A stretch of DNA of 64,000 bases, from NCBI GenBank assembly GCA_029964075.1, contig CM057134.1:18578905-18642904 (forward strand). Reading direction: 5' to 3'. Position 1 is the first letter of the stretch; the number at the start of each line of letters is the position of its first letter. This stretch comes from Patiria pectinifera. Taxonomy: Eukaryota > Echinodermata > Asteroidea > Valvatida > Asterinidae. Under the pieces are notes generated by a model, which worked only from the letters and a program-made list of their open reading frames with translations, searched no databases and was not told where the DNA came from. Below, in pieces: positions 34,392-61,078 of the stretch. Position numbers and translations under genes: made by a program.

Positions 34392-36745
34392 CTATTCCTC
34401 AACTATTTCAAACGACTGTGGGTTTGCATCACTTCCTGATGTCTGGTTATGGAGTTTGTTGGGATCTCCATGTGAAGGCTCATCTACTATGTCTTGATCC
34501 TCAGGCCAGTCCTCTAGATCCTCCATGCTGAAGTCATCACTATCCTCCCCGGCATCCACCTGATCCACCTGATCTTCTACGACCAAGACAGTGTCATCAT
34601 CGAGGAGATCCTCATCTAGATTGAGGAGGAACTCCTCATCATCAATGTAAGCTGGCTCCTGCTGTTCAGCTTTCATCTTCTTGGGAGATGGAGATATGCT
34701 GTCCTTGGCATCGATTCCTGACTTCAGGTTGGGGCCATCTCCAATTTCAGATGATGGTTTACGCTTGATACTCAACTTCTTTGATACAGGTTTTTCAGTT
34801 TCTCCTGTTGGTTTATTTACACCTGATGATTTTGTCTCAGGGACAGCATTTTCATTCCTAGTGGTGTCTGGAATTGTCTTGTTCATAAGCCCTTGTAATG
34901 CTGACGGGGGAGGTGCAACTGAAGAATCCTTTGAGACAGGGGTCTTGTGTTTGATGCTGAATTTCTTTGCAGTACCTTTCTTAGGCGGATTCTTCTCCGG
35001 CTTCTTCGGTTGTTGGTTAATCGTACAAGTATCATCCCTAGCCAGCTCTGCTGGGGGACTTGGATTTTCACTTATACGTGGACTGGCATCAGTCAAAGCA
35101 ATTTCTGCTGAGGAAGTTGACTCGGGAAGGGGGACGAGATCACCTTTCTTCTTGATGCTAAACTTTTTGGCTTTTTGTTTGGTCACACCAGCATCTCCTG
35201 GGCCAGTTTTAGTGGCGGTGGTATTTGTTTTAGTAGGCTGTTTGTTCAAGTCTTTGTCAATTCTCCTTTCAACTGGCATCAAGACGACACTGGCTTGATT
35301 TTCCAAGTTACTGGAAAGTTCGTCTTTTGTGGTTTCCTTCTGATGAACCTTTTTAGACAACTGCTCATCTTTTCTCACAAACGGATCTGCAAAGGATGAC
35401 TTCTTTGGCTTCTTTCCCACATCCTCTAACTTCTTGGATGGTGTTTTGAAAGCTGGCTTCATCTTTGGGCCAGCCTCGGCCGTCTTACTCTTCTTTTTGG
35501 TTTTGGCATTCGAAACATTATCCTGATTGTTTGGAGAGCCTTGAGCTTCAACATTCAACTTGCCAGACATGTCTTCTGCAGTACCGGTTTTGACAGGATC
35601 TGCTGAGGGTTTTGCAGCAGAAAGTTTCTTGGCTCTTGGCTTCTTGACTCTTGGTTTGGAATCTGTGTCACTTTCTCTAACATCTTGGATTTTCTCAGAT
35701 TCAGCTTTTCGGGCATCAGTCTCATTCAAATTCTCTGTGTTCATCTTTGCTGCAAATTTCTTTGCTCTGGGCTTCTTGACTTTGGGTTCAACTTCACCAT
35801 CTGATTTCTTCACCCTTGGCTTTCGGACTTTCTTCTCTTTTAGGATGACTGCTCCGTCACTTTTCTCAGGTTGCTGAAGTTTTCCAGATTCTTCTTCTTG
35901 GGTTCCATCAGCTATGTTTCCTGCTTTCAGTATCACAGCAAACTCCTGATTCTTGGCAGTAGGTTCAACCTCACTCTTCAATTTCTTAACCCTTGGCTTT
36001 CTGACTTTCTTCTCTTTTGGGATGGCAGCTCCCCCACTCTTCTCTTTGGAGACAACCTCAACATTTGATTTCTTAACCCTTGGTTTTCTGACTTTCTTCT
36101 CCTTCGGTTTGACATCTCCATCGGTTTTCTTTGATTCTTGTTTCTCAGATTCAAGTCTAGTCTCGGGAGACTCTTCTGTCTTTAGCATCACAGCAGGTGC
36201 TTTATTTGCCTTCGGTTCAACCTCAACATCTGATTTCTTTACTCTTGGCTTTCTGATTTTCTTTTCTTTTGTTCTCGCATTAGGATCAGAGTTTTTACAC
36301 CGATTCATTGCGTCATCTTCCCCTGTATTTCCTGCTGCTTCTTCATTGAGTGAATTACAGCTCTTTTTGACGCGTTGCTTCTTTGCCTTCTTCGTTGAGC
36401 CATCTTCTTTCACCTCATCATTTATTATCTTGGATCGTATTTCTGGTTCAGAAGCTTGAATATCTCCAACACTCTTGTGATCTCCTTCATCCATGCGCTT
36501 TGCAGTATCATCCCTTGACTCTGCAGTGATGCCTGCTTCTTTCTCCTTACTATTTTTCTTTGAATGATGGTGATGCGATTTATGCTTCTTTTTCTTTTTG
36601 TCACTAATCTCGCTGCTAACATCTTTGAGAGACTTCTTGTTGTACTGCCTTTTTGTCTTACATTTCTTATCAATGTTGCCCTCACATGCCTCTCCATCCG
36701 TAATCTTGTGTGACTTCCTTCTCTTTTTAGTTTCCTTTGGGGCCT
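34392..36745 (-). CDS. ZCWPW1: ZCWPW1 terminal exon: 784-codon lysine-rich repetitive tail with acidic end
   Basis: One 2.35-kb exon encodes residues 453-1236. After a KKRRKSHK/HHHHSKK stretch it carries at least four copies of EKK(V/I)RKPRVKK, each followed by an acidic spacer of the SDVEVEPK type. Two VKKPRAKK units follow, then three later copies of (A/S)KK(F/L)SIK(K/H/R)K. The last about 100 residues switch to acidic sequence (DEEFLLNLDEDLLDDD, EDWPEDQD) and end in SFEIVEE before the stop. The composition is H1-tail-like, so DNA or nucleosome contact is an inference. The tail is far longer than in mammals. Large ORFs on the plus strand here are complements of this exon and not genes. Confidence 0.85.
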
Positions 36746-39700
36746 CTGCAGAAAGTAAAGAAAGTTTTTAAGAAAATGACTAAATGGTAAACATCTTTCC
36801 TACTGGTAAACATCTTTCATTTGCATCAGCAGAGGACGAAGTATCTTCCATGACAGAGAAATAACTAAAACTACGGGGACACGGTTGACTGAGCAAAGTA
36901 TATTGACGAATCCGGGCAAGTGATCACTGTACACTCACAAGGCCCCCTTCAATGGAAAAACCATTGTGCATGCTATTGTACAAAGCAACTGCCCATGACG
37001 GATTATCTGAACAATAGCTAGTACAATGCTTTCGCCATTGAAGGGGGCCTTTTTTGGCGATAGAATTGATAGCGTCTCCAGATCGGTCCATGCTGAAAAT
37101 TAACAGGACGTTTCTTAAGGCAATAAGATTTCTTCCAACTAAGTTTTCAAACAAATTTTTCTTTTCACACAGTTGTTGTGGGGAATTCAATATTTCCCTG
37201 AAGGCATTTTGCACTGGGTTACAGAAGATATTCTACCTTCTTCAAGAGGCAAGTCTTGAAGTGACTGTATGGTCTCCCCCGCCTCACTCAGTAAGGCCTC
37301 TGCCTCCTCCAGTATCTCGTCTACGTCCAGCCCAAGTATCTCAAGATCAAACTCTACATCCACATCATCCGACTCATGGTCTGAATCTGAATCTACATCT
37401 ACAACCTCAACTGTGACAAGATCAAAGACACAGAAAATGTTTTTAGAAAGACAGATTTTGAGAAAAATCAGTTAAATTATTGTTTCTCAGTCTTTGAGGT
37501 ATTTTAAAGTTCATGGTTTCTCTAAGATTACAGCTGTTTTCTTCAAATCAAATTTGTGGACGTTGGGGTTTGCTATTTTTATGGTTTAAGTAACTATTTG
37601 CCGGAATTTTAAAAAGACATGTTGACTTTTGACCCAAATCGTTATGGGTGATTACAACAAAATGAACCAAAACATTTTGTTACTGGATAAAAACACCTCT
37701 CAAAGAGTAATTTAAAGGGAATCTGATTTTGATACGACTCAAAAATGGCTTATCAAACCCAGGTTTAAATTCTTCTTAAACAAAATTTACGGTTCAAGGG
37801 TTTTAAAGGTTTTTTTCCACTGACCAACAAATAAATGAAATGTTTCCATAAAGGCGCTCACCAATTGAAGACTCCTGTGAGTTATCCACAATCTTTCCTT
37901 TGAAGGTGTGACTGAAGCCAAATGTCTTTATTCGCTCCTGTAGAAGTTAAGATATAAAATAATTTACCCTTTGTGATCCCCAAAACAAGGTAAACAGTAA
38001 GTAACACTACACTTATTACTCTGAGCTAACTTAAACCTGTCTGGACTTATATGGTGGTTTCCTACAGGGATGTGATTGTCAATTGGAAACAAATCTGAAA
38101 ATTGGATGAAAGGTCTGAAAGATCTAGTTTTTCCTATACTGATAATGTCTTTCTCTCAGAAAGGATTGATTTCAGACAAAAGTCTGAAAAATCGCATGAC
38201 TGTTCCTAGTTTGTCAACGTAACTTTTTTGCATTCCGAGATGTAAAGATGATAGAATACAAACAAACAAAACAAGAAATACATGTAACTAAAGAAATTGC
38301 AATAGACTGATCTATTAAGCCCCCAATGATGCTTTGTCCGACATGATTAATGTCAGACATGCGTGCAGGCTTTGTCATGCAGCTGTTGTTGCCTAACATG
38401 CACAGTGGCCAGGGTAAAACAAACTTTTCCCAGGGCCATTGAGTGGGCCCCAGACCCCACGCCGCAAAGGCTTCACGCTCGCAGTGCTCGATCTTGGACA
38501 GATGCCCCTATTCTATAATTTATCGTGGCTAGAGCCCTGAGCCACTGCATAAAATGCATTTTTAAAAATTATCTTTAAAAAATGATGATTATAAACAAAA
38601 GACTTTTTTACGTACCTGTACGTTCATGGACAGTGCCTTGTTAGCTCTGGCTACAGCTTGACTAACCTGATGTTTGTAGTCTCGGCCCTTTGCGTGTGTC
38701 TGTTAAAGTCATGGTTAATGTAAAATCATTCTCACTCAAAGAACATTTCTCTAAGTTTTGTTTGGATTTTGTTTGGGTTTTGGGGGTTTGTTTTGGGGTT
38801 GGGTTGGGGTGGGGTGGCCAGGTTTGGTTGGGTAGGGTTGCATTGTTTTGGGGTTGGGTTGGGTTGTTTTGGGTTGGGTTTTATTAGGGGGGTGGGGGTG
38901 TTTGGGTAGGGTTGGGTTTGGTTGGGTTGTTTTGGGTTATTTTGGTTCGGGTTGGGTTGAGTTAGGTTGGGTTGGGTTGAGTTGTTTTGGGTTGAATTGT
39001 TTTTTTGTTGGGTTGGGTTGTTTTGGGTTGGGTTGGCATGGGTTGGGTTGGGTTGGATTGGGTTACTTTAAGGGGAAGTTTTTACTGGCCAGTGTTATCT
39101 CAGTACCTCCATATTGCCAAAGCATGTGATCTGGGAATGGAGGCAAAAATCAGGTAACATTGCACAAATATCTGTGAAGTACAATTAAACCAAAATTTAC
39201 ATTGCATTTTGAAGTTCATGTCTTGACTGTAGAATGTGTTATCTTAAATAGTTGGAATGCAGACAACTTGCATCGAACAGTTAGCATTGGCTTGTCATCT
39301 GCAACAGGTACCTCTTCCAGGTGCTACTTTTACTCTTCCTAGGCAAAGTTAATACCCATCCCGTCCCCAGAGTTTGTCAAGTACAATCTCCAAAAGCACA
39401 GCAAGTCAAATAACTAGTACTATACCTATGAAATTTTTTATATTTGTTCATGGCAAACAGGTATTTGAGTCAATATTCATTGTTTGGTAAAAAGGTGTTT
39501 TTTTATAAAAAATCTCACAAAGACCTTCTCAAGCTCTTTGAAGAAATAGATCATTTGCTCCAATAAAAAGATAATTTTAAACCCTACTTTAACATTATAA
39601 CTTTGTAATTGTTTTGTATAATGACAGTAAAAGTATTATGTCTCAGCTTATTAAGCTGCACTTAAATGAAATCTGATGTTCTATTGCATAAACGTTGTTT

Positions 39701-42700
39701 ATACAATAGTGAGACCTCGTGTGAGGTCTCACAGAAAGTCTCAAGTACATCACTGATTACATGATCAACCCTCACAGTTCCCCCAACTGAATTAATCCTC
39801 CTAAGACAGTCATCGTGGTAAGGATTGGATAAATCTTACTTGTTCGTCTTTGCTGGGATCATACTTCCTGATGAATGTGCTCTTCAGCCAAGTCCTGGAG
39901 ACATTCTTGTCCAGAAACACAACATGGTAGTGAGTCTAAAAACAAAATGGAAAGAAATACTCACAAAACCAAAATCAATACTTATAGTTTAACAGAAATA
40001 TATATCTCATTGCGTCAAAAGTTAATTAATCTGGCTTTTACACGTACAAAGAAAAAAACCCTGTAAAATTAGTAAGTGACAACTTGACCACACTTAAGGA
40101 AAAAAGGGGACTCATCGGTTTTAACTTTGAAACAGTTGTCTACTTTTCCCGCATTTTCTGGTGATAGTCAAAAGAAAGACAACATAGTAAACCTTGGTAT
40201 TTTTTGTACTAGTAATTAATAATAATTGTGCTTATATAGCGCTTTCCATCGTATCAACAATCTCATTACAATTATTACCCCGTTCATCAGGCCATGGGAC
40301 CACGCGGCAGCCGATATCAGCGCTCAATCGGTCCTCGACCCTCACAGGTACCCATTTATACTCCTGGGTGAAGAGAGGCAATTGTAGTTAAGTGTCTTGC
40401 CCAAGGGCACAAACACCGTAGCTTTCTATGCCATGGTCCAGTGGAGACTGGACTCTGAGAAAGCCCTGGGAACATGTTTGAAACGGAGAGACACTTTCTC
40501 AAATCGAGTGTTCCTTATGAAATGACTTTTGAAAAACAGAATTGGTTTTTAGAACCACTCTTTGAGATTCTTACAGGGTAGGTGTCTGTGTCCTCTTGTT
40601 CCAGGTACGTACCAGTGTCTGGGTCTTCCTCTACCATTGCCGGCCACCTGTCATATTTACAGAAAAATATGCATTTTAGTTTCATAGCAAGAATTCATCA
40701 TTGCATTGATGTGAATAGCAGTCCCTGGATTAATTTTCATGTGTCAAATTCAAAGTTAAAATATCTTGAGCCAACTTTTGATGGAAGCTATGGATTTACC
40801 ATGGGAAGCCCTGCATCTTGGCCCAAACAATGGATCCCTCGGTGAACTTGGTGAAGACAAACTCCAGCGAGTGGTAATCCTCCTCAGGGTGTTCACAAGA
40901 ATTGTGAGCGGAATCTTAAGACAAAAAAAGTAATTGAAATAAGGATTATTATGTTCCCATGCTTTAGTGTTGTAGTGAAGACTCCTGATGATGGGTGGAG
41001 CGTACTGGTTTTTTAATTGAGTTCCCCACTAGACCACATGATGACCAGGGGCCAATTTCACAGCACTGCTAAGCACAAAAATTTGCTTAGCACAGAAAAA
41101 GTCTGGCTTATAAAAGCAGGTTACCAGCCAAAACTCCATGTGATTTTCATGCTAAGCAAACAACAGCTGAATACTAATCACAAGCAATATACGTACATCA
41201 CATGGAGTTTTGGCTGTTAACGTGCTTTTTATAAGCCCGACTTTTTTTCTGCTAAGCAAATTTTTGTGCTGAGCAGCGCCGTGAAATTGGCCCCTAGGGC
41301 CCAATTTCATGGCTCTGCTTACCATTAGTGGAAAATCCCTGCTTACCATAGCAGAAAATTCTGCACTTACGGCTAGCATATTTCACAAGTTGGCAAAGAT
41401 TTTGGCATATTATGCGCATGTGTACATCATGTAACTAAGGATTCTGTGCTGACAGGATTAGCACAGATTTTGGGGGCTAGCGCTGTAGCACAAAATGATG
41501 ATCATAAGCGCGGAATTCTGTGGTGAGCAGAGCCATATGAAATTGGGCTCTGGCAACGTGTCGTGAGGGTACAATCTGTCGGGTGCCTGGCAGAAGAGCG
41601 TATGCGCCTATGCCCTTACACGGGAACGCGTAATCACCAAAACATTTTTAGCAAAACGGCATATGCGGAAAACTGCCTCTATTTTATTGAAATTTTAATA
41701 TTTTCATCTGAAATTAATACAAGTTGTTCAAAAAATTTAATGATTCATACGTGTGACATGTTTAAAATTCATACGATTTATAATACGTGTGGGAGAACAT
41801 CGGATTCATAATACGTGTAGGGGAGCATTGGAGCCTTTCAATGCACATTTCTTGAAAAGCGATTTTTCGCGTCGTAACGCTCATATGCCCTTCTGCTGGG
41901 CAGCCGACGAATCCTCCATGGGCAGGTAAAGCATACTGTCTGACAATTGAGTTCCCCTGGTTCTTTTCAGAACCTCATAAACTCACAAAAGGCGGATTTC
42001 TTACTACACGGTGCAACCACAAACGTACTCTTATTGCTAATACTTCAATAAAAATATCCGCTCTTGTCTAGGTATGGAATAATTATTTCATAAATTGCAA
42101 AATATTTACAGCCCTAAAAAGTAAAATACTTAAGGTTTATCTTTTCTGCATTTAACAGATCCATTAGCAACCCACAATAAAAGCCTATCAACAGAGGATT
42201 ACAGATGCCCAATATAGAATAAAAGTAGTATTTCATGAAAAAAAAACAATGAAAGTTTGTTAGGAGAAAAAAAAAAGATTTGATGAAGAGTTTAGCAACG
42301 TAAATGCTGACTAAAGGCCTGTAAATAAACTGAGGAGTAGAGGACTATACAGGGTGAGTAAAAAAAAACGAAACCCAAATGTCGGGACTATTGTTTTATT
42401 GAAGTTCTGCATGTAGCACTTTCAATATCAAGGACGTGAAAGCCCAATTCAAAAACTTTCTTTTAGTACAAGAATCATTCAAACCACTGATGTACTTTTC
42501 AAGTTACGGGATTTTAAACACAACCACCGTTTTTAAGTTCTGTCCACGGATCACCTAACAGGTATGCGTTCTGTCAGCAAAACGAAAACAATTCACACAC
42601 ATCCCTATGTCATTTGTTTTTCGTATTGCTGAAAAGAACACTGAACCGTTTTGTGATCCGGGACAGAACCTTAAAACGGTGGTTGTATTTAAAATTCTCT

Positions 42701-45700
42701 AACTTAAAAAGTTCATGAGTGATTTGAATGATTCTTGTACTAAAAGAAAGCTTATGAATTGGGCTTTCATATCCTAGATTTTGAAAGTGCTACATGCAGA
42801 ACTTCACTAAAACAATGGTCCACACACTTGGGTTTTGTTTTTTGACTCACCCTGTACATACTCTTTTTTTCCCTAAAACACATGTTCTTGTACAATGCAG
42901 AAGTATCTACAGACTTTTACCTGTATTCATTTCGCAGACCCAGTGCTCAGGTATCAGTGCGGGGTCCGTGACATCGCTCAGATAGCGCCACTTCAAGCAT
43001 TCACTGTGCATACACTGCACCCAGGTCCCGTCTTCGTGGACCGTTCGCTCTTGAAGCTTCTTCTTCTTATCACTGCCCTTTCTTTTTTTCTTGGGTTTGG
43101 GGTCAGATTTTGGGAGGAGTTTTCTCTTGATAGCTTTGTGGAGGGGCACTGAGGGTTTTGGGTTAAGGAATGATAAGAAATTATACAATTATAAAACAAT
43201 TATACACGATAAAACAATTATACACGAGGAAATGTTATTCTAGACCAAACATGTTGGGACGTTAAGGCCAACAACAAAAAAGCCGGTCTCTGGTCAGCGC
43301 GCGCATTGATTTTGATCATGCGCGTCAATCTTTTGTTTTCTTCAAATTTTCCACGGTAGCTACAAAAGAGATATCTCTATTGCAGCACCACCTCAAATTT
43401 TTGTACGAAGGAGCACCAAGGAATTGGGAAAGTGCACAAAGGCAAATGATGGAGGACACCAATATATATGAGGACACAAAAAGCAAAAATAGAACCCACC
43501 TTGGCTGTACAATCCAAGCTTGAAAAAAAAAAATGGGGGAAAAAAAATAATGCATTGCCGCATCAAATCTGGAGTTTAAGTCTGACCGGAGACAGACTAT
43601 TTTTTTTTTTTGGCCTGAGATTTTTTTTTTTTTCAGGGGAGGAAACCAATTTTGGAAGAAATGGTTTGGAAGAAGACTTAGCTAGAAGCTTTGACATTAT
43701 GCCTGCAAAACAGTAAATGACACATTTGAAGTCATCAACACTTTCCTGCCATTTTAATAAAATGATTGCATATTTGAGGTCAATAACATTTTTGCCTGCA
43801 GCTTTTAATTACTGAATTTCTGTCTGCCTGCCACTGTCTGCCCAGGCGCGGTTCTACGGGGGGGCTAGGGGGGGCTGTAGCCCCCCAAAAATTTTGTCTA
43901 GCCCCCCCCCCCAAAAAAAAATTCCGTAAAAAAAAAAATTGCATTATCAAAAAGAATGATTGTGATGTACATGCGAACGGTCTCCCCCTAAAGAAGAAAT
44001 AGCTGTGACAAGGGTGCATTTGTTAATATATTGTGAATGATTTTAGGATTTTTTGGCGCTCCCCATTGAAAATATGGCATGAACCCCCATTGATTTTTGG
44101 AGGCCTAAGTGTCTGGAAAAAATAACCGGTCAACATTTCAGCACGCCTCCCTGAAAAAAATTCTTGATCCACCGTGCTAGCCCCCCCAAAATATTGGTTC
44201 TAGAACCGCGCCTGTGTCTGCCACCACTGTTAAACAGTAATTAGACATTTTAATGAAACATTTATCGCCTCCAATATTCATAAAGTAGGCCTATGAGCGC
44301 CGGGCGCCAACAAAAGAGGGTGCCTTTTTAGCACTGTTGAGTCCCGTATACGGGACACACATCGTGTCGTACTGTACTGTACTGCTCGTACGCACAACTT
44401 CTAGAAATAAATGTGCCAAAGCTATTAGCGTCTTCGCGTGTGCGTCAGGCATTGTCGGCGCGCGAATGCGTTTGAATTTATCTTGCGATGGTCTCCCAGA
44501 CCAATCCCCACCCCCAATAACTTTGGATCATTCGAAATACGCAGTGGATGGACCGGGAACCAGTCTAGGTCTCCCCCAACTCTCCTTTTCTGGCCGTTGA
44601 AGGGGTACTTGTGCATGGAGCCCATAACTTTACATTTGAGGTATTACTGACAAGTATTTGAAAAACTGTCAACATATACACACCCATTACGTACTTGAGA
44701 TATTAAAAGTAATGAAGAAGAATCACAATTTTGTTCCCTTTTTATTTGCAGCGACGGTGACTGAACAGCGTTACCATACAAAACACTAAATTTTGTTTCT
44801 AGACATCTTAAGTTTCATACCAGATTGTGTAGAGCTCTGGTACTCCAGTTTTCTCCCGCTGCTCTTGCGTCGATCAGCCTGTGGAGTCTTCTTCTTGTGC
44901 GACCTCTTGTGAGAGAGTTTGGGAGGCATGGGTAGGGACTCTTTTTCCTCGGCGCTCAGCTCCGGGGTGACTAGATCACTGTGTCTTTAAGGAGAAAATC
45001 AGCATGCAACCATAACAGTCACGCTCATGAATAACAGAATCATTTTTTTTTTGGGGGGGGGGTGTCTTATTATTTGAAAGAGCATCTTTAATTTTAGAGG
45101 CTTACTTAACATCTAATTTAACTTGCCCAATATTTTTTTTCATAATAAGGAACAAAACATTGTAACTATCAGCTGTGGCTTTGTGGTTAAGTGGACTCGT
45201 GGTCATTGGATTCGTGGTCTGTGGGTAAAGCCCAAGGTTGTGGGTTCGAGTCCAGCCTGGAGTCATGGTGCGTGTGCCCTTGGGCAAGGCACTTTGTCAC
45301 TCATTGCTTCTCTCCACCCAAGAGTAAATGGGTACCTGTGAGGGCAGAGATGGTTATGGTGATTGATTCTAGCTTCCTTGCGCCTAGCAGGCTGCATCGA
45401 GCTGTGTACTCCCCAGGGAGCTGAGATGGTATTTGTAAAGTTTCATGGGCCCAATGAGCAGGGGTAATAATGATGTAGCGCCTTGCGCACAGTCCTGGTG
45501 GATACGTGCGCTTTATAAATACCCAATATTATTATTATTATTATTAACAACTCCTCAAGTTATAATCATCTTGAACCAAAAAGTGCTAGGTGGCAGGTGC
45601 CTACAATATAAACCCATGCCTTTAAAATCAGCGTCCAATTTAATTGAGCTACTATGCAAAATGATGTTGTTAAGAAAATGTGTGTGCCACGAGAAAGTCG

Positions 45701-48959: not shown

Positions 48960-51900
48960 ATGGCGTCAGGAAGCATGGCCCTCGTGGATTCTGGTCTGGC
49001 TGACTTGGACAAAATTCTTCAGAGCTTAGGTAAGTTTCTCCCCACAGACATCTGACTGACACAAACAAATTTGTAATTTCCAAGGCCCAAGTGAACGCAT
49101 GCATTTGACATTAAATTATCATGGCCTTTTATTTTATAGGCCTACTTTATCGTTGGCTTTTGTTTTATTGCTGTTTTAATCCATCAGTCATAACCATGAT
49201 AACTTTTTCTTTAACTGATATAGGCCTAGGCCTATCATGAAACAAAGAAATGGCTGAAGTGAATTAAATCTAAACAAAATCATGAAAACCTAGCTAACGT
49301 TATGCGTAACTTAGCCCCCCAAAAATTGTTCTGCTTCCGATTACATGGGTCATGGCATTCAAAAATAGGGTAGGTAGGTAGGCAATTTATTTTTTTTGCC
49401 AATTTTTTTGTGCACGATCATATGGAGGCATCGGCGTGTGGTCAAGGGTAAAATTAAAAGGTAGAAATTTATGGTTTTAGGGGTTTTTTCCCCTCATTTT
49501 TCCATACAAAATTTAGCGTAGGGGCTGTCAGGATAGGGTAGGTAGGGAAACCGGAGGCAGAACTGGTTTTTTTTTTTGGCCAACAAAGTTGAATTGATAG
49601 TGCCCTGTTTGATGTATAAAGAACCCCAGCTTTTTGACTTTTGCCCTTCACCATTTTTTCCCATTGTGTTACAGAAATTGAGAATAAACAACAGCAGCAT
49701 GAGATACAAAAGGAACAGCAACAGACAGCAGGTTTGTTAAACTTTAGTAAAAAAAAAGAAAACGAATGAGGATTAGATATAGAGCCTAGCGAAAATGTGC
49801 TTTGGCAAAATGTGCTTTGTCCACAGCAAGTAAAGTTGATGGATATTAATTTCATGTGTTTCCAATTTGTCATGCTTTTGTGCATTCATTGACCTAGCAA
49901 CTCTCTTTTTTGCCCCCTTTTAGCAAGATGGCTGAATGACTGAACATGTTTATTGTGATACCCTGTCCTGCGCAATGATACAACACCTCAAACACTGCAT
50001 CGTCAAAATTCATATGTGATCGACAACAGCCAAACAAAAATTAAGCATGCAACTGTGGCACGATTAAACTTAAGTTTTCGGTTAAGAATAACAATTCTCC
50101 AAACTTCACATTCAGAATCTCAAATTTCTAACTTTACTCAACACTCTTCTAACAAATTTGTGTCTCAAATCTGACAGTAAATAAAATTAAAAACTTTTTT
50201 TCCAAAGTTTGAAAGGAGCTTTAAAAAAGTGTCCCCCCCCCCCCCAAAAAAAAAACACTTTCAAAGAGATGGGGAAGTTTGGCCTATAAGATGTTCGAGA
50301 AAAACAGTTTGATATTCTGTTATTTGTTAGCCTTTGAAGCAGCCACTGTCGAGAAAGAGATGGGTACAAAAACACTACAGGAGGAAACGGCCAAGCTGGA
50401 TGAGGAGACTAAGGCAGCTCATCAACAGTTTTGTCGCAACAAGGAGACTTATGAAAGGTCAACTGGATGGATGTTTGCAGAATTGTAGTAAAGTCAATCA
50501 CAAGACAAATCACAAAATAAGGTCCCTTTATAATATCTGTACATGTAGAACTCCCAAGCCCAAAAAGGAATGTCTTTGTTGAGACCCAACAGCTTGAGAC
50601 CAGGTTACTTGTTTTTGACTTGTGATTGACTTGTGATTGATTTGTGATTGACTTGTGATTGACTTGTGATTGAATTGTTATGGACTCGTGATTGACTCGT
50701 GATCGAATTGTGACGGACTTGTGATGGACTTTTGATGGACTTTTGATGGACTTGTCATGGATTTGTGATGGATTGTGATTGACTTGTGACTGAATGGTGA
50801 TAGACTTGTGATGGACTTATGATGGACTCGTGATTGACTTGTGATAGACTTGAAATGGACTTGTGATTGTGAATGACTTGTGATGGAATTGAGATGAACT
50901 TGTGATGGACTCTTGATGGACTCTTGATGGACTCGTGATGGACTCGTGATGGACTTGGGATGGACTTGGGATGGACTTGAGATGGACTTGTGATGGACTT
51001 GAGATGGACTTGTGACGGACTTGTGATGGACTTGTGAAGGACTTGTGATTGGCTTGTGATGGACTTGTGATGGACTTGTGAAGGACTTGACATGAACTTG
51101 TCAGTGATTGACTTGGCAGCAACACTGAAAATTTAACTACTCTCCAGTGTCAACTTTGAAATAACAAATGAAATGATTAAGAAAGGAAAATCCCGAAGTA
51201 CCCTTTTTTAATTTCCAATTTCTTTTTTTTTTTAGCTTGAAGAATCATTATCTTGCCTTAGTGTTGAATCAAGAAACGGCGCAGAAAGAATTACATGAGC
51301 TGCAAGACAAGTGGCAAGTCCAACAGTAAGTTTGATTTCACAGGAAAATGAAATAGAGCTTGACCGATGTTCAGTTTTAGAGGTTGGAGGAAAACACAGA
51401 ACGGTATATTCAAGGGAAACGTGCATTTGTATTCCTAAGCTGTCCCTGGTAAACATTACACCTGCCTGTTCAAGCCCCCCCCCCCCCATGTTCAATTTTC
51501 TGTTTCAGGAAATGGGAATTTCTAATATCCTAGATAAATCCCTGTGTTTGAGTTGTTTTCAGTGAAAATATGTCTAATGCCCAAGGTGTAAACCCCCCCC
51601 ACCCCCACTTTTTTTTTACCCATGACCCATTGGATCACCCCCTCTCCCCGCAAAAAAAAAGGTCTGGCTATTTTCTAACTTTCCAAAAGCCCAACTGTAT
51701 TACATAGCACTGAAAAACGGAGAACCGACAGTGCTGATGTATTGTAAGCAGCCAGTTTGCATCAGATGTACATTTGTATCATAAACAGCGCCCCTAGTGT
51801 CCAGCTCCCCCCCCCCCAGCTTTCAAAATTCCATGACCAGGTAACTTTTGGATTTTGGTTATTCACCATTGGGCACTGTGATCCAATGGTTACGGTGTTC

Positions 51901-54900
51901 GACTCGTGTGCCATAGTACATGGGTTCGAATCATGACGGGGAACATGGTGCTTGTGCTCTTGAGCAAGGCACTTTACCATTATTGCGTTGCTCTTCGGAT
52001 GGGACATAAAGCCGTAGGTCCTGTGTGTTGTGTAATGCACGTTATAGAACCCCAGTAACATCGCTAAGAGAAGGGGTTAGCCCCGGTGTTTCTGGCAGTG
52101 GCTGCAATATGCGCCGCAGCTCCTTGCAAACCCTTGTTAAGGTGCTACATATTGGGTCTCATATTTTTCATAAACTTCATTTACCCGTCTTTAAAAATAG
52201 ACATACCTAATTGTTGCGTGCGTTATATAAGACTCCGGTATTATTATTATTATCCCCCATGAAATGGATTTACGCCACTGTCGGTGCTCAATAATTGTGC
52301 ATATTAATATGTGCAAAAGACACCTATGTGGAATTGTTTGATTGTGCACAGAGCCGAGCAGGAGAGAATTCTGCAGCACTACGAGTCCATCTGGGACAAG
52401 TACAAGGCCAAATACGAGGAGAAGGCGTTGGCCGTGGAGCTGAGGCAGTGGCAGCAGCAGGTGGCGCAGACGAGGGAGCAACTGACTGAATCAAAGCAGA
52501 AAGTGACGTCCCTAGAAACAGCCATCCAGGAGAGAGAAGACCAGAAAAAAAACGGTAGGATATTTTTTGGGGGGGGGGGGGGAGACCGTAGGATGAACTG
52601 CCCCCCCCCCCCATCCCCGCAAGCTTGTAACAAAAAAAATCTGGAAAGGCATTTGATAATGTGCTTAAAAGGATAAATGTACAAAGAGTGAACAAAGAAT
52701 TTTCAAAACTCCATTTTCCGATCCCCCAAAAACCGAAAAGCAGGAAGGGTTCATAGACAGCAATTGACACAGAATTGTAGTGTTTATTGTGGCATTTTGA
52801 AGATTTCGGCATTTTACACCCATTTGAGACATCCCACAAAAGGTAAAAATGCAAGGGTCAGCGTTTTCTTCTGTGAAGTTAAATTTCTTGGCAATATCTT
52901 CACAAAGATGACAATTTTTTTCACAGAAATTTTTCAAACCAATTTTTATTTTCTATACAGTTGATATGATCACTCAATTTCTATCATGTCAGTGTTGCCA
53001 TTGTTGTGATGACCCCAAAACATATTACTTTTCCTACATTTGTATCTTATCCTTCTCAATCTCTCGTTTTCCTTTAAAAGCTCCAAAGCCATTCAAAAGC
53101 CTGAATGATTGGGTCATCCAGATGTATCCTTACACAAAACTGAAAAAGTAGCCTCTTGCAAAAATACACTCTGCGTTAAATAAGACACATTTTGTAAGCC
53201 TTCTTAATAATTTCCAAACTATAAATGCAGATTTAAAGAAAAACCACTCACTGAATTCTAAAAGACAACTAGTTCAGAATGGGAAACCCTCTTGCTCTCT
53301 TACCAAATATATTTTTTTAGGTCAAATTAATGAAACAAAGAAAATCAATCAGCATTTTGTTATTTATTATACCCATAATTTCAATTTTCGGCTCCTTATG
53401 CATTTTCAATTTGTATTTTTTTTTACAGAAAAAAAGGTTTTTTCTGTATTTGTTTACGTTTTTAACCCTCTGAAAATACAATTTTCATTTGGATTTCTTT
53501 TGGCCCATTATTACGCACAAAGAAAAGTCAGAATTATTGCTTGGCTACAAATTAAAATTCCATAAAATAAATGTGGACAGGTTTTTTTGGGTTTGATGTC
53601 TCATTCAAAAGTGAATAAATTTTATTTTGCTAGACAGACAGCAGTTCAAAACACAAAATATATTTTTCGGTGAACTAAACAAAAATAAAATAGACTTGAG
53701 GTGAGCAATTTTAAATTCAAACAAAATGATCTGAAGACGGCTTAACGAAGTGTGGCATCAGAGCCAAGGCTGCAGTACAAACAAGAGATCTTAGAAGACA
53801 GAAAGAAGAGACACTGAGGTCAATCAACAATGCAAAGATGAAGATACAAGAAAGGAAAGATAAGCAACTCCGACTGCAAAAGGTAGGCCTGCGATCTTCC
53901 AGGATTTTTCATCTGTGTTAAACATCTTAAAATAGGATTGAATTCAATTGTGCACATTTAATTCTTTATTACGGTTTTCTCTCTTTAAACATTATTCATG
54001 AATACCTAAGACAGTTTACCCATTCCTATTGGTCGAGAGCCGTCACGTGGCTGTTCTTAAATAGTTGATAAAACACCGGCTGGCTGGTTTAAACACTTTT
54101 ACAGTATCACATGAAATTTGGACTCCTATGAAATCTGGTCCCTTTTACCCTTTTATTGGTTAAACATTCACTTTATAAAGGCATGAGCGATACCACCACT
54201 GAATTTGTATTTGGAGAGTCCTCAATTGACACTACACCGGCACCGCTGCGTTCTGCGCCACATCACGTAGTGCACATCAATCTCCTTTTTTTTTTTTCAT
54301 TTCACTCAACATTTATTTCCAACTCTGTATACAAACGCAAATAATATACATAATATAACGAAAAAAATTAACACGAGATGAAATAATAATATTAAAGCAA
54401 AATGGGTCAATAGTTGTGCTAACTATAACAGAAAAGTTTGCTAACCTTAAGCACTATTTCATGAGGTGGATGTGGTTGCGTGCATGAAGATTTCTACTGT
54501 TCAGTCACTAATTGAAGCAACTTTTTCATCTGAAGTAAGCATTTCTTTTGCTGTGCTTACTGCATGCTGACGGTCTACGCGTAATAGACAGAGACTCTGT
54601 AAGCAGAAAATCATAACAGCTATGAAATTGGGCCCGACCTATAAACTTGACTTTAAATTATTTGACTTGTGATTGACTTTATTACACCTCTGCCTTTATC
54701 CTTAATACAACACTATGAACTATGCATTTAGGATTTTTTGTAATAAACTTCTAGGCATCTCAGTGATGTACATGTACTGTAGTCCCAACGTTTAAACACA
54801 ACTTTGTACATATCTTATCACGAATGATGGGGTGTGAGTAACCATTTATGACTAATAATCATCGCAGTGTCCGGTTTAAGCAATAATTAATCTTTTGAGG

Positions 54901-57900
54901 ACAGGAAAAGGAGGAACAGGAACGCAAGAGGAAGTTGAAAGAGGCCGAAGACAAGACACGCCAGGAAGAACTGGAGAGGTATATTAAGATCCGAGGTCGC
55001 ATGCTGATCTATAAATAGACCAGGGGTCATGCAGAGGTCAGACCTGGATCAGACATCCCCAGTCTAAACAATATACCCATTTAAAATATGCCCTGTTCAG
55101 TCTAGGGGTGCTGTGGTCCAATGGTAACGGTGTTCGACTTGTGTGCCGTGCGTGGTACATGGGTTTAAATCCTGACCGTGGGAACATGGTGCTTGTGCTC
55201 TTGAGCAAGGCACTTTACCATTATTGCTTCGTCCTTCGGATGGGACGTAAAGACCTTAAAGTCCCGTGTATTGTGTAATGCAAGTTAAGGAACCCAGTAA
55301 CACTTATCGCTAAGAGAAGGGGTTTGACCGTTGTTTCTGGCAGTGGTTGTTTAATGCGCGGCAGCACCTTGTAAACCCTTATAAAGGTGCTATCATATTT
55401 TCTGATGTACTTCATCCACATGTCTCTAATAACAGACATAAATTCCAGCGCCTTGAGTACCTAATTGTTGGTAGATACGTGCGCTATTAAAGACTACGGT
55501 ATTATCTTGTTCCATATGTCTAGTTTGGAGACGTCGGGGCAGATCTTGCTTTTAAGAAACTGGGGTTTGATATGAAGGGGGTTGACCAAAGGCACGCCCT
55601 GCTAGTGGGGTCCAGGGCACACCCCCAGAAAATTTTGAAATCTACAATGCTTTCTCCTGCGTTCTAAGGCAATTTAAAAAATAAATAAATTTAGGAACTT
55701 TAGCATTCCATATATTAACTTTGGTCCTCTTTTTCTAGTATCAAAACATTGCTGAACAGGAGGAGGGGGGGGGGGGTGTCACCCCCGCCACTCCCCATCT
55801 AGATCCGCTACTGGACTATTATTTGAGAAAATCAAAACTGCACACAGGTTGGGTCACAGCGGGATTGCTTAGTTATGGTGTTTCGTACTAATTGAACCAT
55901 TTCAAATACGCAGCTGCTGCCTTGATTGTAAACAAAATGTCAAAAATATTTGAAGAAAAAACCTGTTTGTTACTTTCACATGTTGTTTTCCAGACAAAAA
56001 CAACAACAGCTGTACCAGGAACACAAACTGCAGCAGTTGAAGGCACAGCAGCAGCAATGGCAACAGCAAACCTCAGTTCCTACCACGCCCCAACAGATCC
56101 TTCCCCCGCAGTCACCAATATTTCAGCAGCCCACCAGGAGAGCCCCGCCCCAGTACATCCAGAGTCCTCTGGTTAGGTCGGTAGCTGCGGTTCCAGCCAG
56201 CCCACTGCGGCGACCGCCTTACTTGCAGATGCCGATCCTGGCATCCCCTCGACTCTCGGCCGATAGTGCCAGTGGCAGCTCTGAGAATGTGCCGCAGCCA
56301 TTTGCACTCAGAATGCCAGTGGAGAGTGTGAACAAAACTCAGGTTCGTTTGTTCAAAAGCGATTCCTCTGATCCAAAAAAGGCCCAAAGATAATTTCAGA
56401 TGCGTACATGTAGTTAACTTTGTGATACCGATTCTTTTGCGGGAAAAAGCTCCTGCCTTTATGGTTCACACTGCAGTTCCTTAAAATAGCTTGGTATTTG
56501 AAAATAATAAACACATTACCCAAATTATTGTTTTCCATTTATATCACAAAAACATGACATTCCAAACCAGACACAACCACAGGCAATGGTGCAACAGTCA
56601 TCGGATGCCTCTGTACCAAAGGAAGCACCAGCCCTACCCACAGTCTCCGCCCATGAGAGGGCGGAAGTAGCCAATCAGAGAGCAGTCCCACGGCAGGACG
56701 AGCCAATCACAGAGGGCCGATTTGAAGTCAGTGGGGAGGAGGAAAGTGGAGGAACTGATGATGCAGGCATGTGCAAAATTTTACCAATTGTTGACCAATT
56801 CTGAGTGCAGTACGTGACCTCAAAAGTTATAATTTGCACCGATTCTTGGCATATATGGACTCACAAGTATGTACATGTGTATCGCAAGTATTCCCGTTAA
56901 CTGTGACGAAAAGTAATATGTGAAAGAGACTTTAAAGGGAGTATAAAACATGTGTTGAATAATATTTGTGCTGTTATTTTTAAAAAAGGAAGGATTTGGG
57001 GGTTAGTATTTTATAGCCAATATATTGTTACACTGACTTGTTCGAAGCGTTGTGTTCGTAGATGCTGGAAAAGCCAAGAAAAAACAATCATGTATATGTA
57101 GTCTGGTTCCCTGATCCCACTTTAAGATGAAACAGAGCAATTTATAGATGTCGAGGAATTGTAAGGTGAGGGAACCAGTCTAGCTGGCTTGTACCTGGTC
57201 ATAGGTGTGCAATCAATTGCAAATAGGGGTCAAAACTCCCTCTTCAGCTGCATAAAAAAGTAGAAAAATTGTGCAAGAAAACACAGCAAATGCCTGCAAA
57301 GCCCTTCTTGGCAGCTAACCTCCATCTTGATCGAAACCTGGATCCGCCCCTGCAACATGATGGAGCACCCTTTGCCTTTTAATCTTACAGTGGACGAATC
57401 TCTGAGTGAAGCCCCAGTGACACCGGCTACGGACCTGACCAGCTTCCAGGACCCAGGCACACCCGGATCAGTCGTGTCTCTGCCCCCGAGAAGCCCCTTT
57501 GATCTGGACACTCATCTGCAGAGTCTGCAGGAGATGGCCAAGTCGCCTGGATTCTCTTACTCATTTAGGCCCATGTTTGGTGCAGCCGAGGATGCAAATG
57601 CACATGTACGTGTCTCAGTTGTTTTCAAATCAATTTTCAAAGTTGAATCACAAGTCAGCAGAGTTGTAATAAAGTTTTCGCAATTCCTCATTCAAGTCAA
57701 TCACAAATCTTTCACTCTCGGATCAAGTGTGGGTAGCATGGGTGGCTAGTGCGTAAAGCGCTCGCCTCTCACCAATGTGGCCCGGGTTCGATACCCAGCT
57801 CGGGCAATGTGTGAGTAGAGTTGTTCGTTGATTCTCTCCTGCGCCATGAGGGTTTTTCTCTGGGCCCTCCGGTTTTCCTCCCTCTGAAAAAATCAACACT

Positions 57901-60547
57901 TTTGATCTTAGGCTGTGCTCCGTGGTCAGACATGGGTCGTATGGCGGCAGCCTAAGGCACCTATGGCAGCCTACGGCTCGACCACGTTGTAGCCACGTCC
58001 TTGGCAATTCAGCTTCTCAGCTGCGAGTAAGAATGATTAGCCCACCAACTTATTTTAAGTAAGGATGATTAGCCCACCAACTTATTTTAAGTAACAGGCT
58101 TTTCGAATGAACTGTGACAATAGAATTCCTTTCGGCAGTTCGGCTGCAGCACTAGACAGCGTGATGGTGTTGCAAGCTCCTGATACGAGCTCTGTAAACT
58201 CAAGTCTCAAAAAGGTATCTTTTATTTAATTAACCTCATTTTGTTTGTTGTAGGGTGAAGTGGCGGACAAGTCTTGTAGTAACCCTCCAACCTCCTCCTC
58301 AGAAAACTTTGACTCTCCTTTCTTCGAGTCTTTCTTCTCTGGGGTAAGAGTTGAGGAATTTGTGACATTGAAACGATTATGTGCCAATAACATGGTCACT
58401 GTTAGCTTGTGTTACGTGAGAAATGTAGTATGGCGCTGGGTTCCAGGAAGGACATATTGTGCATGTGCACTGGTTCTCGTATATGCACGAACCTGGTGTA
58501 ATGTGCACTGTATACACATTACTAGTGTTGGGAGAAATCGTAGATAGCAAAATCCTGTTATTCTAATTTCGTTGCGTCAGTGCAACAAGGTCGTAACTCC
58601 ATTCTGCAACAAAGTCGTATCTCGCGCAAATACGCTCTGTGCAACAAGGTAGTATCTCAACGTCCACTGACTTTGCGTGTACATCCGGGTTATTTTAAGC
58701 GGAAACGACCTTTTGACATTCTAAAACTCGCGTTTTGCGTTCATAACTCCATTCTGTAACAAAGTCGTATCTCGCGCGAATACACTCCGTGCAACAAGGT
58801 CGTGTCTCGACGTCCATTGACTTTGCGTGTACATCCGGATTATTTTAAGCGAGATACAACCTTTTGACATTCTCAAACTCGCGTTTTGCGTCGTTCTTGC
58901 CATTTTAGGAGATCTGACCTTGTTGCACTGACGCGACGATTTTGTTTCAAACTGAATAACGGTTATCTGATTTTACCAGAAGCTCCCATTCAGTTCACAG
59001 TCATGCCGAGAAAAGTGACGAGTGAGGTGCTGCATGAAATGCCCTCTGCAATGATTGGGTGTAGTTTGCAGGATTCAATGACCACCGGGCCTTTACAAAA
59101 ACACGGCAGAGCTGTAATTTTGAAAAAAATGGGTGGGAACTTTCTGATAAGTCAAATGGGCAGGCTTTTCATGAACCAAAAAGACCGCTAGCAATTGAAT
59201 TCGATCGAAATCAGAGATGATGGAGCAAAATTGGGGAATGTTCCAATTGTTTTCTTTAGCCTGTGTCACAAAAACTGAAAGGCTATATTTTTTTATAGAT
59301 TGGTGTTGAGTATCCGGTTTCTAAAATTATAGAAACCGAATAGTGGAATTCAAATCAAATTTGTAAAAAATCTGGATTTTAATCCCACCACTACACACGA
59401 TAATTTGCAAATGTGATGTTCACAAATCCACAGCATTTACATCTAGGGGTAAATGCACTCAAATTTGCTTCAAAAATGGCACTCTACATCAATTTAACAG
59501 CTTTGGGGATAATGGCACCACAAGGGTCCACAGAGATATTTACAAGCCATTTTAAACAGTAAAAGAATTTAACTTCGAAGTGCGGCTTTATGTTTAACCA
59601 AATGTGTTTCTCAATACCCCAAGATGGTCGGAGCCATTCAGCCAGCCTCCAACACCCCAACAAGTATCTTTGGTGCAAGCAGAGACCAAGTGTCATCGCA
59701 TTCTACTGGTGCATGTAAGTTTGAAGTTCGAGGTAAAAACCATCAAAATCATAAGAAATAAACACTATCTGATTGGGGTGTTTAAAGGCAGAGTGGACCA
59801 TTTGTAATTTGTGCATTTGTTTTCTTCATTTGAAGCAACAAAAGCGCTCAAAATCTTAAGATGGGGTAGTTTTATGTTGTAAACTGCAACTTTCGCGAGC
59901 ATCATAAACGTGAAATATGTTTTGTTTTCACATGTAGCCTGGTTTTCAGTTTTAAAATTCTCTACAAATGACATTCAAAACCTTTCTTTTTCATTGTCTG
60001 AGAAGTTACTAAGTAATTTGTAAAGTCTGTTAATGGTACCCGATCCTATAATCTGGAACCGGTTCCTGACATCAACGGTTGGGTTCTCGGGTAGCTGGTT
60101 CCGATACACAGCCCTAATTGGTCAAAAGCTGTCAGCTGACATACATCATCGGGTACCAAGGACATGATAGAAGGCACCCATTGCATGTCAGAATCCGAAG
60201 GGCAAGATGCAGTTGTTTTGCATATTTAAGCGCCAAATCTGCAAATTATTTTCCATGGACTAGTTGATACAAGTGCATGAACAATTATCGTCTCCTGCTC
60301 TGCAATTGATTTTTATTCTGGGATATTTGTTATAGCCATCTTTGGAAGGCCTGGCAGCCCTATGGATACTGGCCACTCCAGGCCTCCAGGGGGCGTCCTG
60401 TCACTATTCGGCGGAGGTCAACAGAAAGCGGACAAGGCCAGAAATGACGAGGATAAGTCCCCGGCCACTGGCTTCAGTTTCAATTTCGGTGGGTCCAGAT
60501 CCCCTAACGTTGACAGTTCCGGAGAGGGTAAATTCAGCCTTTTCTAA
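48960..60547 (+). CDS. SIX6OS1: SIX6OS1 (C14orf39)-like synaptonemal complex central-element protein, 14 exons, complete
   Basis: Exons: 48960-49029, 49675-49731, 50331-50457, 51236-51325, 52352-52554, 53081-53147, 53762-53882, 54905-54978, 55994-56342, 56583-56766, 57391-57605, 58254-58343, 59624-59714, 60336-60547. They join in frame to 1,950 nt or 649 residues; vertebrate SIX6OS1 is close to 590. The start ATG sits in the favourable context ACCATGG. Features: short N-terminal helix (LADLDKILQSL, compare SLDRLLLEF in mammals), coiled coil over about 30-180, a conserved APKPFKSLNDW block at 183, a charged helix and Q-rich stretch (about 205-305), then a disordered S/P-rich tail with FG-like motifs. 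In mice SIX6OS1 joins SYCE1 in the central element and is needed for synapsis (known). Identity rests on remembered family motifs, so orthology is likely but not proven. Intron 10 uses a GC donor. Confidence 0.72.
49312..49572. mobile_element. CCTACCTACCCTA repeat (inverted copy) in SIX6OS1 intron 1
   Basis: It reads from CCCCCAAAAATTGTTCTGCT through AATAGGGTAGGTAGGTAGGC to GAAACCGGAGGCAGAACTGG. It is the reverse complement of the intron 1 repeat of the neighbouring gene. Confidence 0.65.
50618..51100. repeat. 11-bp minisatellite in SIX6OS1 intron 3
   Basis: About 40 copies of GACTTGTGATG/T and variants (GACTCGTGATG, GACTTGAGATG). It fills most of the intron. Confidence 0.9.
51874..52252 (+). 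mobile_element. tRNA-derived SINE (family A) in SIX6OS1 intron 4
   Basis: A box GTGATCCAATGGTTACGG, B box GGGTTCGAATC, body with GGATGGGACATAAAGCCGTA, and an (ATT)n tail at about 52,240. It runs in the same orientation as the host gene. Confidence 0.8.
52352..53147 (+). CDS. SIX6OS1: SIX6OS1 exons 5-6: coiled coil and the conserved PF-SL-W block
   Basis: Exon 5 (52352-52554) encodes a heptad-rich helix beginning AEQERILQHYESIWDKY. Exon 6 (53081-53147) is only 67 bp and encodes APKPFKSLNDWVIQMYPY. In vertebrate SIX6OS1 the same order is found: a helix with QYKEVLKQYQLKY, about 50 residues more, then VPAPFPSLTKW (from memory). The phase agrees on both sides: G from exon 5 plus CT gives Ala, and AA plus A from exon 7 gives Lys. 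Skipping exon 6 would need a different acceptor for exon 7, at 53777 (after CTGCAG), which also exists, so an isoform without this block is possible. Confidence 0.7.
55106..55508 (+). mobile_element. tRNA-derived SINE (family A) in SIX6OS1 intron 8
   Basis: TGTGGTCCAATGGTAACGG head, GGGTTTAAATCC B box, the shared CTTGAGCAAGGCACTTTACC body, and the end GATACGTGCGCTATTAAAG followed by a short ATT-like tail. It is full length and in gene orientation. Confidence 0.8.
55994..56342 (+). CDS. SIX6OS1: SIX6OS1 exon 9: glutamine-rich then proline/serine-rich segment
   Basis: This is the largest exon of the gene (349 bp). It starts with a Gln-rich amphipathic stretch (RQKQQQLYQEHKLQQLKAQ, then a Q run) that extends the preceding charged helix, and changes to Pro/Ser/Arg-rich sequence with several SP sites (QSPIF, QSPLV, PASPLRRPPY, ASPRLSAD). 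The SP sites could be targets of proline-directed kinases, which is inference only. The donor is CAG|GTTCGT. A longer reading frame continues past the donor, but downstream exon 10 fits only the spliced frame. Confidence 0.68.
57099..57182. mobile_element. 84-bp mini copy of the TAGTCTGGTTCCC family in SIX6OS1 intron 10
   Basis: TAGTCTGGTTCCCT and AGGGAACCAGTCTA are inverted, with only about 56 bp between them. Confidence 0.6.
57391..60547 (+). CDS. SIX6OS1: SIX6OS1 exons 11-14: disordered C-terminal tail with FG-like motifs
   Basis: Exons 57391-57605, 58254-58343, 59624-59714 and 60336-60547 encode a low-order tail. It carries repeated Phe-Gly or Phe-X-Phe motifs: TSIFGASRD, GRPGSP after SIF, LSLFGGG, FSFNFGG and the terminal FSLF before TAA. 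Exon 12 is rich in Ser, Asn and Phe (SPFFESFFSG). No catalytic motif is seen. The evenly spaced hydrophobic FG patches suggest short linear interaction motifs; the partner is unknown. Introns 11, 12 and 13 each hold a transposon. Confidence 0.65.
57735..58096 (+). mobile_element. tRNA-derived SINE (family C) in SIX6OS1 intron 11, with a duplicated end
   Basis: A-box-like GGTGGCTAGTGCGTAAAGCG and B-box CGGGTTCGATACC stand about 30 nt apart, followed by a body with CTCTGGGCCCTCCGGTTTTC. The 3' edge holds two copies of a 36-bp unit containing GATTAGCCCACCAACTTATT (58,027-58,096). Confidence 0.7.
58564..58945. mobile_element. MITE with an internal 150-bp tandem duplication, SIX6OS1 intron 12
   Basis: TTGCGTCAGTGCAACAAGGTC at the left and GACCTTGTTGCACTGACGCG at the right are inverted. 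Inside, a 150-bp unit that starts TAACTCCATTCTG is present twice (58,594 and 58,744), each copy itself holding GTGCAACAAGGT and AACAAAGTCGTATCTCGCGC. Confidence 0.75.
59776..60117. mobile_element. Composite MITE remnant in SIX6OS1 intron 13
   Basis: The left part (TTTAAAGGCAGAGTGGACCATTTG, AAGCAACAAAAGCGCTCAAA) matches the end of the TTAA-type element at 61.08 kb. The right part is an inverted copy of the hAT MITE of 5.3 kb and ends CCGATACACAGCCCTAA. It is the debris of two element families fused together. Confidence 0.65.
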
Positions 60548-60901
60548 ATTTAGATTTTTACGAAAATACTATAACAGTATTTATTGAAAGTGTTCAAGTG
60601 TTCATTTCAAGAGTTGATGTTCTGAAAAGTTTAATTTGCTTCGTTGTACAGTGCACATGCAATGCTTGTAGATTTTTCAAATGTGCTAAAAAGATTACTC
60701 TGTTTGTATTGAAAAAGCAGTTTAAGTGCCCTTTTTGAAAAATCCAATCTTTCCCACGCAAAGCATTTTAGACACTTGAAATTCTTGTGAGTGGTGAACA
60801 ACTTCATTTTGTTTGACATAAAAGTATGACAGGTACATCATAGTATGTGCATATTAATTACACTAATTTTATTTAAATTAATCTGTTTACATTTTCAACC
60901 T

Positions 60902-60907
60902 AATAAA
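60902..60907 (+). terminator. SIX6OS1: Poly(A) signal candidate of SIX6OS1
   Basis: AATAAA lies 355 nt after the stop codon and is followed by T/G-rich sequence (GTGCTTTG, then CTTTTTC). It would give a 3' UTR of about 0.38 kb. Confidence 0.5.
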
Positions 60908-61078
60908 GGCGTGCTTTGTAAACATGCTTTTTCAATATGTACACTTTTTCATTTGGCCAGGAATATTTCATCAATATGGTAAACACAAATGGAATTACGG
61001 AAATAATTTAAAGTAATTAAAGTCATTATTTACTATTCAGTTTGGCATGGTTCAAACTGCTAAGCAAAGCTGCTTAAA

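Follow-up and report, generated by a model that had tools for sequence, protein, structure and literature searches.

The organization that we favour, with moderate confidence, for positions 34392 to 60547 of the analysed window, a stretch of 64,000 nucleotides from the asteroid Patiria pectinifera, is that of a divergent meiotic gene pair, in which a ZCWPW-family reader predicted on the minus strand and a distant SIX6OS1 homologue predicted on the plus strand would share one bidirectional promoter. This degree of confidence applies to the joint reading as a whole, including the opening of the promoter through E2F-type factors at meiotic entry and the co-production of both proteins.

Gene models and predicted proteins of the pair

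Both gene models were built in phase from the raw sequence. The minus-strand gene starts with an ATG at position 47972 and its stop codon ends at 34392, comprising 12 exons that encode 1236 amino acids; the plus-strand gene starts with an ATG at 48960 and its stop codon ends at 60547, comprising 14 exons that encode 645 amino acids. The head-to-head arrangement proposed in the first-pass annotation was recovered and its positions were reproduced exactly, as both models could be rebuilt in phase with an interval of 987 bp (47973-48959) between the start codons. Neither model contains a frame break, and the phases agree over all 24 introns. An AG acceptor is present in every intron and a GT donor in 23 of the 24, the other one being a GC donor at 56767 (plus-strand intron 10). 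The donors matched the consensus at six or more of nine positions in 23 of the 24 introns, compared with 16% of 2,000 random GT sites, and the weakest donor (plus-strand intron 6, after position 53123) matched at four of nine; because the splice sites had been picked to fit, this agreement indicates consistency and is neither a blind test nor a proof, and the independent support for the models comes from the Pfam and family matches. A codon-bias ranking trained on these very exons was circular and was set aside. In-frame stops were found 30 nt upstream of the minus-strand ATG and 69 nt upstream of the plus-strand ATG.

The first four exons of the minus-strand gene are located at 47808-47972, 46467-46563, 45843-45933 and 44821-44978. 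Exon 5 (42921-43148) encodes most of a CW zinc finger, exon 6 (40800-40914) the end of the CW and the start of a PWWP domain, exons 7 (40575-40647) and 8 (39840-39935) further parts of the PWWP domain and exon 9 (38616-38699) its end, according to the Pfam matches and, for exons 5, 7, 8 and 9, the PDB matches. These are followed by exon 10 (37862-37937), the acidic exon 11 (37237-37410) and exon 12 (34392-36745), which encodes a long C-terminal tail with basic KPR(V/A)KK repeats (repeat family D4) and an acidic end. In this last exon, four 95-nt direct repeats at 35773-36296 encode the KPR(V/A)KK-type basic repeats, and the repeat tail is perhaps DNA-binding.

Pfam analysis of the minus-strand protein revealed a zf-CW domain (PF07496) at residues 212-258, with 54.5 bits against a cut-off of 27.5, and a PWWP domain (PF00855) directly C-terminal to it at residues 273-364, with 62.1 bits against a cut-off of 25.6. 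Judged by these domains, the predicted protein belongs to the ZCWPW family of CW+PWWP readers. The first-pass annotation had named it a ZCWPW1-like histone reader, and of this name the family part held, whereas ZCWPW1 and ZCWPW2 were scarcely separated: the CW domain scored 52.5 bits against ZCWPW1, 46.2 against ZCWPW2 and 39.9 against MORC3 in PDB, a comparison that covers the CW domain alone, the PDB matches listed for the PWWP domain holding no chain of either paralogue. As the CW domain favours ZCWPW1 only slightly, a gene predating the ZCWPW1/ZCWPW2 duplication is equally likely, and the minus-strand gene may thus be older than this split. ZCWPW1 and ZCWPW2 are paralogues whose presence is coupled to PRDM9 across vertebrates (Cavassim et al., PMC8892340). 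The recognition of H3K4me3 by human ZCWPW1 depends on the residues W256, E301 and W303 (Huang et al., PMC7314539). An alignment to 2e61, in which we matched the residue numbers ourselves, showed that the minus-strand protein keeps Trp and Glu at the positions of W256 and E301 and has Tyr at that of W303, a position occupied by Phe in the aligned ZCWPW2 chain. Given the two residues that are kept and the Tyr at the third, a function of the predicted protein as a reader of H3K4me3/H3K36me3 is plausible. In PDB, the PWWP domain matched MSH6 best; an MSH6 gene was rejected because a CW domain is adjacent and because, apart from zf-CW and PWWP, Pfam gave for this protein no more than a MUM1-like PWWP model below its cut-off. 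A search of prokaryote and viral contigs with the CW-PWWP region gave no confirmed relative (five pattern matches in prokaryote contigs, none of them confirmed), and positions 45000-49000 of the window had no match among plasmids; as the collections searched consist of prokaryotes, viruses and plasmids, these blanks carry no information on animals.

The plus-strand gene begins with exons 1 (48960-49029), 2 (49675-49731), 3 (50331-50457), 4 (51236-51325) and 5 (52352-52554), followed by exon 6 (53081-53123), which precedes the weak donor and encodes a PxPFxSLxxW motif common to human SIX6OS1. Exons 7 (53762-53882), 8 (54905-54978) and 9 (55994-56342) lead to exon 10 (56571-56766), after which the GC donor is found, and the gene is completed by exon 11 (57391-57605), the Phe-rich exon 12 (58254-58343), exon 13 (59624-59714) and exon 14 (60336-60547), whose encoded tail ends in FSLF before the stop. 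For the full predicted protein, S6OS1 was the sole Pfam match at E values up to 1 (residues 39-301, E = 6.5e-5, 22.1 bits). This score lies under the curated cut-off of 27 bits, and the protein is therefore called a homologue and not a formal Pfam member. No S6OS1 match was obtained with the reversed protein or with four of six block shuffles. Among the fragments, residues 74-240 scored 21.7 bits, residues 1-202 18.1 bits and residues 1-287 13.6 bits against S6OS1, residues 1-181, which end just before the motif APKPFKSLNDW, had no S6OS1 match, and the C-terminal 267 amino acids had no Pfam match.

Pairwise comparisons were made with a human SIX6OS1 sequence that was itself checked against the S6OS1 profile, where it reached 905 bits over the full length. 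The first 300 amino acids of the plus-strand protein gave a Smith-Waterman score of 144, compared with 66.9 ± 12.5 for block shuffles, none of 500 of which reached it (z = 6.2), and the alignment was collinear from the N-terminus. The motif region scored 74 against a shuffle mean of 30.2 (0 of 500; z = 8.2), while the score of the C-terminal region (53 against a shuffle mean of 42.7) was reached by 50 of 500 shuffles and was not significant. The plus-strand protein combines an N-terminal part of about 290 amino acids rich in helix formers with an end enriched in Phe, and a similar layout is present in human SIX6OS1. Its last 114 amino acids, an end length taken from the SYP-4 truncation in PMC11833701, contain 13 Phe (P = 3.9e-5) and its last 180 contain 17 (P = 1.0e-5), and at end lengths of 60 and 100 the P value is about 0.02; over the same four end lengths (60, 100, 114 and 180), the P values for human SIX6OS1 were between 6e-5 and 4e-4. 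Based on the profile and the alignments, the plus-strand protein is very probably a distant SIX6OS1 homologue. The first-pass description of the gene as SIX6OS1-like is thus upheld as to homology on moderate evidence, namely the sole Pfam match and the N-terminal alignment, with a score that stays under the Pfam cut-off, and the Pfam search at E values up to 1 assigned the protein to no other family. The sole PDB match of residues 1-237, to chain 3mx9_A (E = 0.011), was weak and was taken as chance.

Several repeats are present in the introns of the pair and beyond. An inverted repeat at 42363-42843, in minus-strand intron 5, has 183-nt arms that are 88% complementary and 115 nt apart, with the look of a small transposon, and plus-strand intron 3 contains an 11/22-nt tandem repeat about 490 bp long at 50607-51101. 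A dispersed element with a SINE-like look occurs three times (24542-24806, 51958-52228 and 55199-55463; families D5, D6 and D8), two of the copies lying in plus-strand introns. At 10688-10760, an Rfam tRNA match of 36.2 bits was not called by ARAGORN and is perhaps a tRNA-derived repeat. Outside the pair, nine ORFs were sampled from the 203 of at least 60 amino acids in 1-34300 and 60600-64000; none had a Pfam match above cut-off, and one had a weak match below it (E = 0.021). The ORF at 26995-27315 on the minus strand has a hydrophobic start, a Q/Y/G-rich stretch and a Pfam match only below cut-off; it may be the initial exon of a further gene, and additional CpG-preserved windows begin close to it, between 27.3 and 30.1 kb. 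Mammalian SIX6OS1 owes its name to its position opposite SIX6, and no SIX gene was seen in the window in the scan of the nine ORFs outside the pair. The first-pass annotation places the human genes on different chromosomes, SIX6OS1 on 14 and ZCWPW1 on 7.

CpG content and E2F-type site of the 987-bp interval

The interval at 47973-48959 is a candidate bidirectional promoter according to the gene models and the CpG content. Its CpG observed/expected ratio was 1.22, compared with 0.62 for the window, and 3 of 631 windows of the same length reached this value, two of them overlapping the interval itself. The ratios of the two gene bodies were 0.51 and 0.58, those of the first introns 0.57 and 0.44, that of minus-strand exon 1 1.39 and those of the two halves of the interval 0.92 and 1.53. 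Exon 1 of the plus-strand gene is not CpG-preserved (two CpGs in 70 nt, ratio 0.44), and within the interval no CpG occurs beyond position 48898, which leaves about 60 bp to the plus-strand start codon. The CpG-preserved stretch is accordingly made up of minus-strand exon 1 and of the interval up to about 60 bp short of the plus-strand ATG. In animals with methylated gene bodies, stretches with this pattern are promoters kept free of methylation. The bulk ratio of vertebrates is near 0.2, and the 0.62 of the window accordingly speaks against a vertebrate origin. The preservation of CpG suggests that the stretch is probably unmethylated in the germ line, CpG content serving here as a proxy for methylation. 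From the geometry of the pair and the CpG content, we infer that the interval would act as a single bidirectional promoter. Upstream ATGs were found 5, 94, 205 and 250 nt before the minus-strand ATG and 175, 229, 245 and 272 nt before the plus-strand ATG; the nearest of them, beginning at 47977, is out of frame with the minus-strand start codon. In addition, a 101-nt repeat in two inverted copies that are 79% complementary (46626-46726 and 49475-49575) flanks the interval, with one copy in the first intron of each gene.

A palindromic E2F-type site (TTTCGCGCCAAA) lies at 48432-48443, close to the centre of the interval, and has no second match in the window. The palindrome, TTTSGCGCSAAA, which we take to be the E2F consensus, is present in only this copy, and the two start codons are 465.5 and 522.5 bp away from its centre. 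When the whole window was shuffled (n = 100), the mean number of copies was 0.00, and dinucleotide shuffling of the interval produced the palindrome in 7 of 20,000 cases. As the site had been spotted by eye before any test and 20 motifs (18 + 2) were tested in total, the corrected chance of the palindrome is about 0.007. The 10 of 631 control windows that hold it all overlap this one site, because the window contains no other. Among 18 promoter motifs, those of E2F alone stood out in the interval: one CCGGAAR site and four TATAWAW sites were not convincing, since 49 and 55 of 631 windows, respectively, have as many, and the 987 bp contain no full NRF1, CRE, CACGTG, GGGCGG or GTTGCC motif. Neither the PRC1.6-type motif GCGGGA (PMC5806899) nor the STRA8 motif CNCCTCAG (PMC6392498) has a match in the 987 bp, an absence that weakens the most specific of the mammalian parallels.

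Proposed joint control and rival explanations

Under the proposed mechanism, the 987-bp stretch would act as one bidirectional promoter serving both genes. Outside the germ line, this shared promoter with its E2F-type site would keep both genes silent; when germ cells enter meiosis, the stretch would be opened, released from or activated through E2F-type factors, and the reader of recombination marks and the synapsis protein would then be made together. The functions of both proteins would be those suggested by their mammalian relatives. In the mouse, the central-element protein SIX6OS1 is required for synapsis and for the processing of recombination intermediates before crossover formation (PMC5095591). 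Six6os1 is directly upregulated by STRA8, and at STRA8-activated genes E2F motifs show the strongest enrichment (PMC6392498). ZCWPW1 is a reader of histone marks linked to PRDM9 hotspots, and male mice need it for break repair and synapsis (PMC7314539). Loss of MGA derepresses ZCWPW1 (PMC5806899; PMC8266391).

Chance adjacency is a serious rival to this mechanism, and we consider it possible, if rather unlikely. Both genes would then be what they seem, perhaps within common open chromatin, and their arrangement would be a lineage-specific accident with no selected co-regulation. One genome was seen and the pair was picked out after the fact, and a single E2F-type site is no proof of joint control. 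If, roughly, a few hundred of some 25,000 genes are meiotic and 10-15% of genes lie in head-to-head pairs less than 1 kb apart, a fraction of one pair of two meiotic genes would be expected per genome by chance. An accident accounts less well for a CpG-preserved stretch that runs unbroken through the whole interval, with no split into two parts, and for one palindromic site near its centre, as a single common element would have. Another reading is that hidden 5' exons place one or both of the true starts elsewhere, so that the 987 bp would not be a common promoter. The start positions are deduced from the models, ATGs lie upstream of both start codons and the CpG-preserved stretch ends before plus-strand exon 1; nevertheless, the in-frame stops close upstream of both first coding exons, together with a CpG-preserved stretch that fills the interval, as expected if transcription starts there, render such distant starts quite improbable. 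Two distinct promoters inside the 987 bp would be a further possibility.

The identity of the plus-strand gene is the other point at which the pair could fail, as an unrelated coiled-coil protein might resemble SIX6OS1 in composition only. This would agree with the 22.1 bits against the cut-off of 27, with the drop to 13.6 bits for residues 1-287 and the missing S6OS1 match of residues 1-181, and with the C-terminal alignment to human SIX6OS1 that was not significant. A likeness of composition fits poorly with the reversed protein and four block shuffles, which had no S6OS1 match, with the 21.7 bits of residues 74-240 alone and with the z scores of 6.2 for the N-terminal and 8.2 for the motif region (0 of 500 shuffles each), and the Phe-rich end is as in human SIX6OS1; we regard this possibility as very improbable. 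If the two genes form a divergent meiotic pair under one promoter, they would offer a simple way to test whether a single element switches on both the reading of hotspot marks and synapsis. Were the adjacency due to chance, the locus would still provide two complete meiotic gene models, one of them diverged below its Pfam cut-off.

Age of SIX6OS1 and comparison with known systems

SIX6OS1 was described in 2016 as first appearing in cartilaginous fish (PMC5095591), and according to a review it is possibly absent in bony fish (PMC8531508). If the plus-strand gene were a true invertebrate orthologue, the dating to cartilaginous fish would be too young, and the possible absence in bony fish would represent a loss. 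A far-reaching conjecture, which we regard as unlikely, is that of an ancient meiotic "divergon": early animals would have kept the mark reader and the synapsis protein as a head-to-head unit under an E2F-type switch, vertebrates would later have split this unit when SIX6OS1 came to lie opposite SIX6, and SIX6OS1 would be much older than cartilaginous fish, with its dose coupled to that of the mark reader. SIX6OS1-like proteins of invertebrates may well be present in databases already. Among open-access papers that name both SIX6OS1 and ZCWPW1, no title or abstract opening mentioned a linkage of the two genes. None of the invertebrate terms sought occurred in the available text of PMC7494361, and in the accessible parts of two further papers SIX6OS1 is treated in mammals (PMC8598163) and listed for mouse (PMC10359014). 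In the sea cucumber, syce1 is male-biased, and C14orf39 occurs in the available text of that paper in a reference title only (PMC9128100), while the sole open-access match for ZCWPW1 together with echinoderms was, from the part available, a brain-imaging study.

Like vertebrate ZCWPW1 and ZCWPW2, the readers of PRDM9 marks, the predicted minus-strand protein has a zf-CW domain directly followed by a PWWP domain and keeps the equivalents of W256 and E301; it differs from them in the Tyr at W303 and in a tail of about 785 amino acids with at least six KPR(V/A)KK motifs. The predicted plus-strand protein resembles SIX6OS1/C14ORF39, a component of the central element of the synaptonemal complex, in its N-terminus rich in helix formers, its P-x-P-F-x-S-L-x-x-W motif and its Phe-rich end, and differs from it in its low identity and its Pfam score below the cut-off. 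The central-element protein SYP-4 of C. elegans, which has a disordered Phe-rich end, would be like the plus-strand protein in its working only. The Phe-rich C-terminus of SYP-4 is needed for crossover control, and a parallel to SIX6OS1 was suggested by the authors of that study (PMC11833701).

With regard to the arrangement of the pair, the closest parallel among the systems considered here is the Stag3/Gpc2 promoter, which is bound by MGA, L3MBTL2 and E2F6 (PMC8266391). Like the candidate promoter described here, it serves a meiotic gene and its neighbour. The two systems differ in that the Stag3/Gpc2 pair has one known meiotic partner, whereas in P. pectinifera both partners are, by homology, predicted to be meiotic. 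The Stag3/Gpc2 promoter is divergent, and one of its partners alone is a known meiotic gene.
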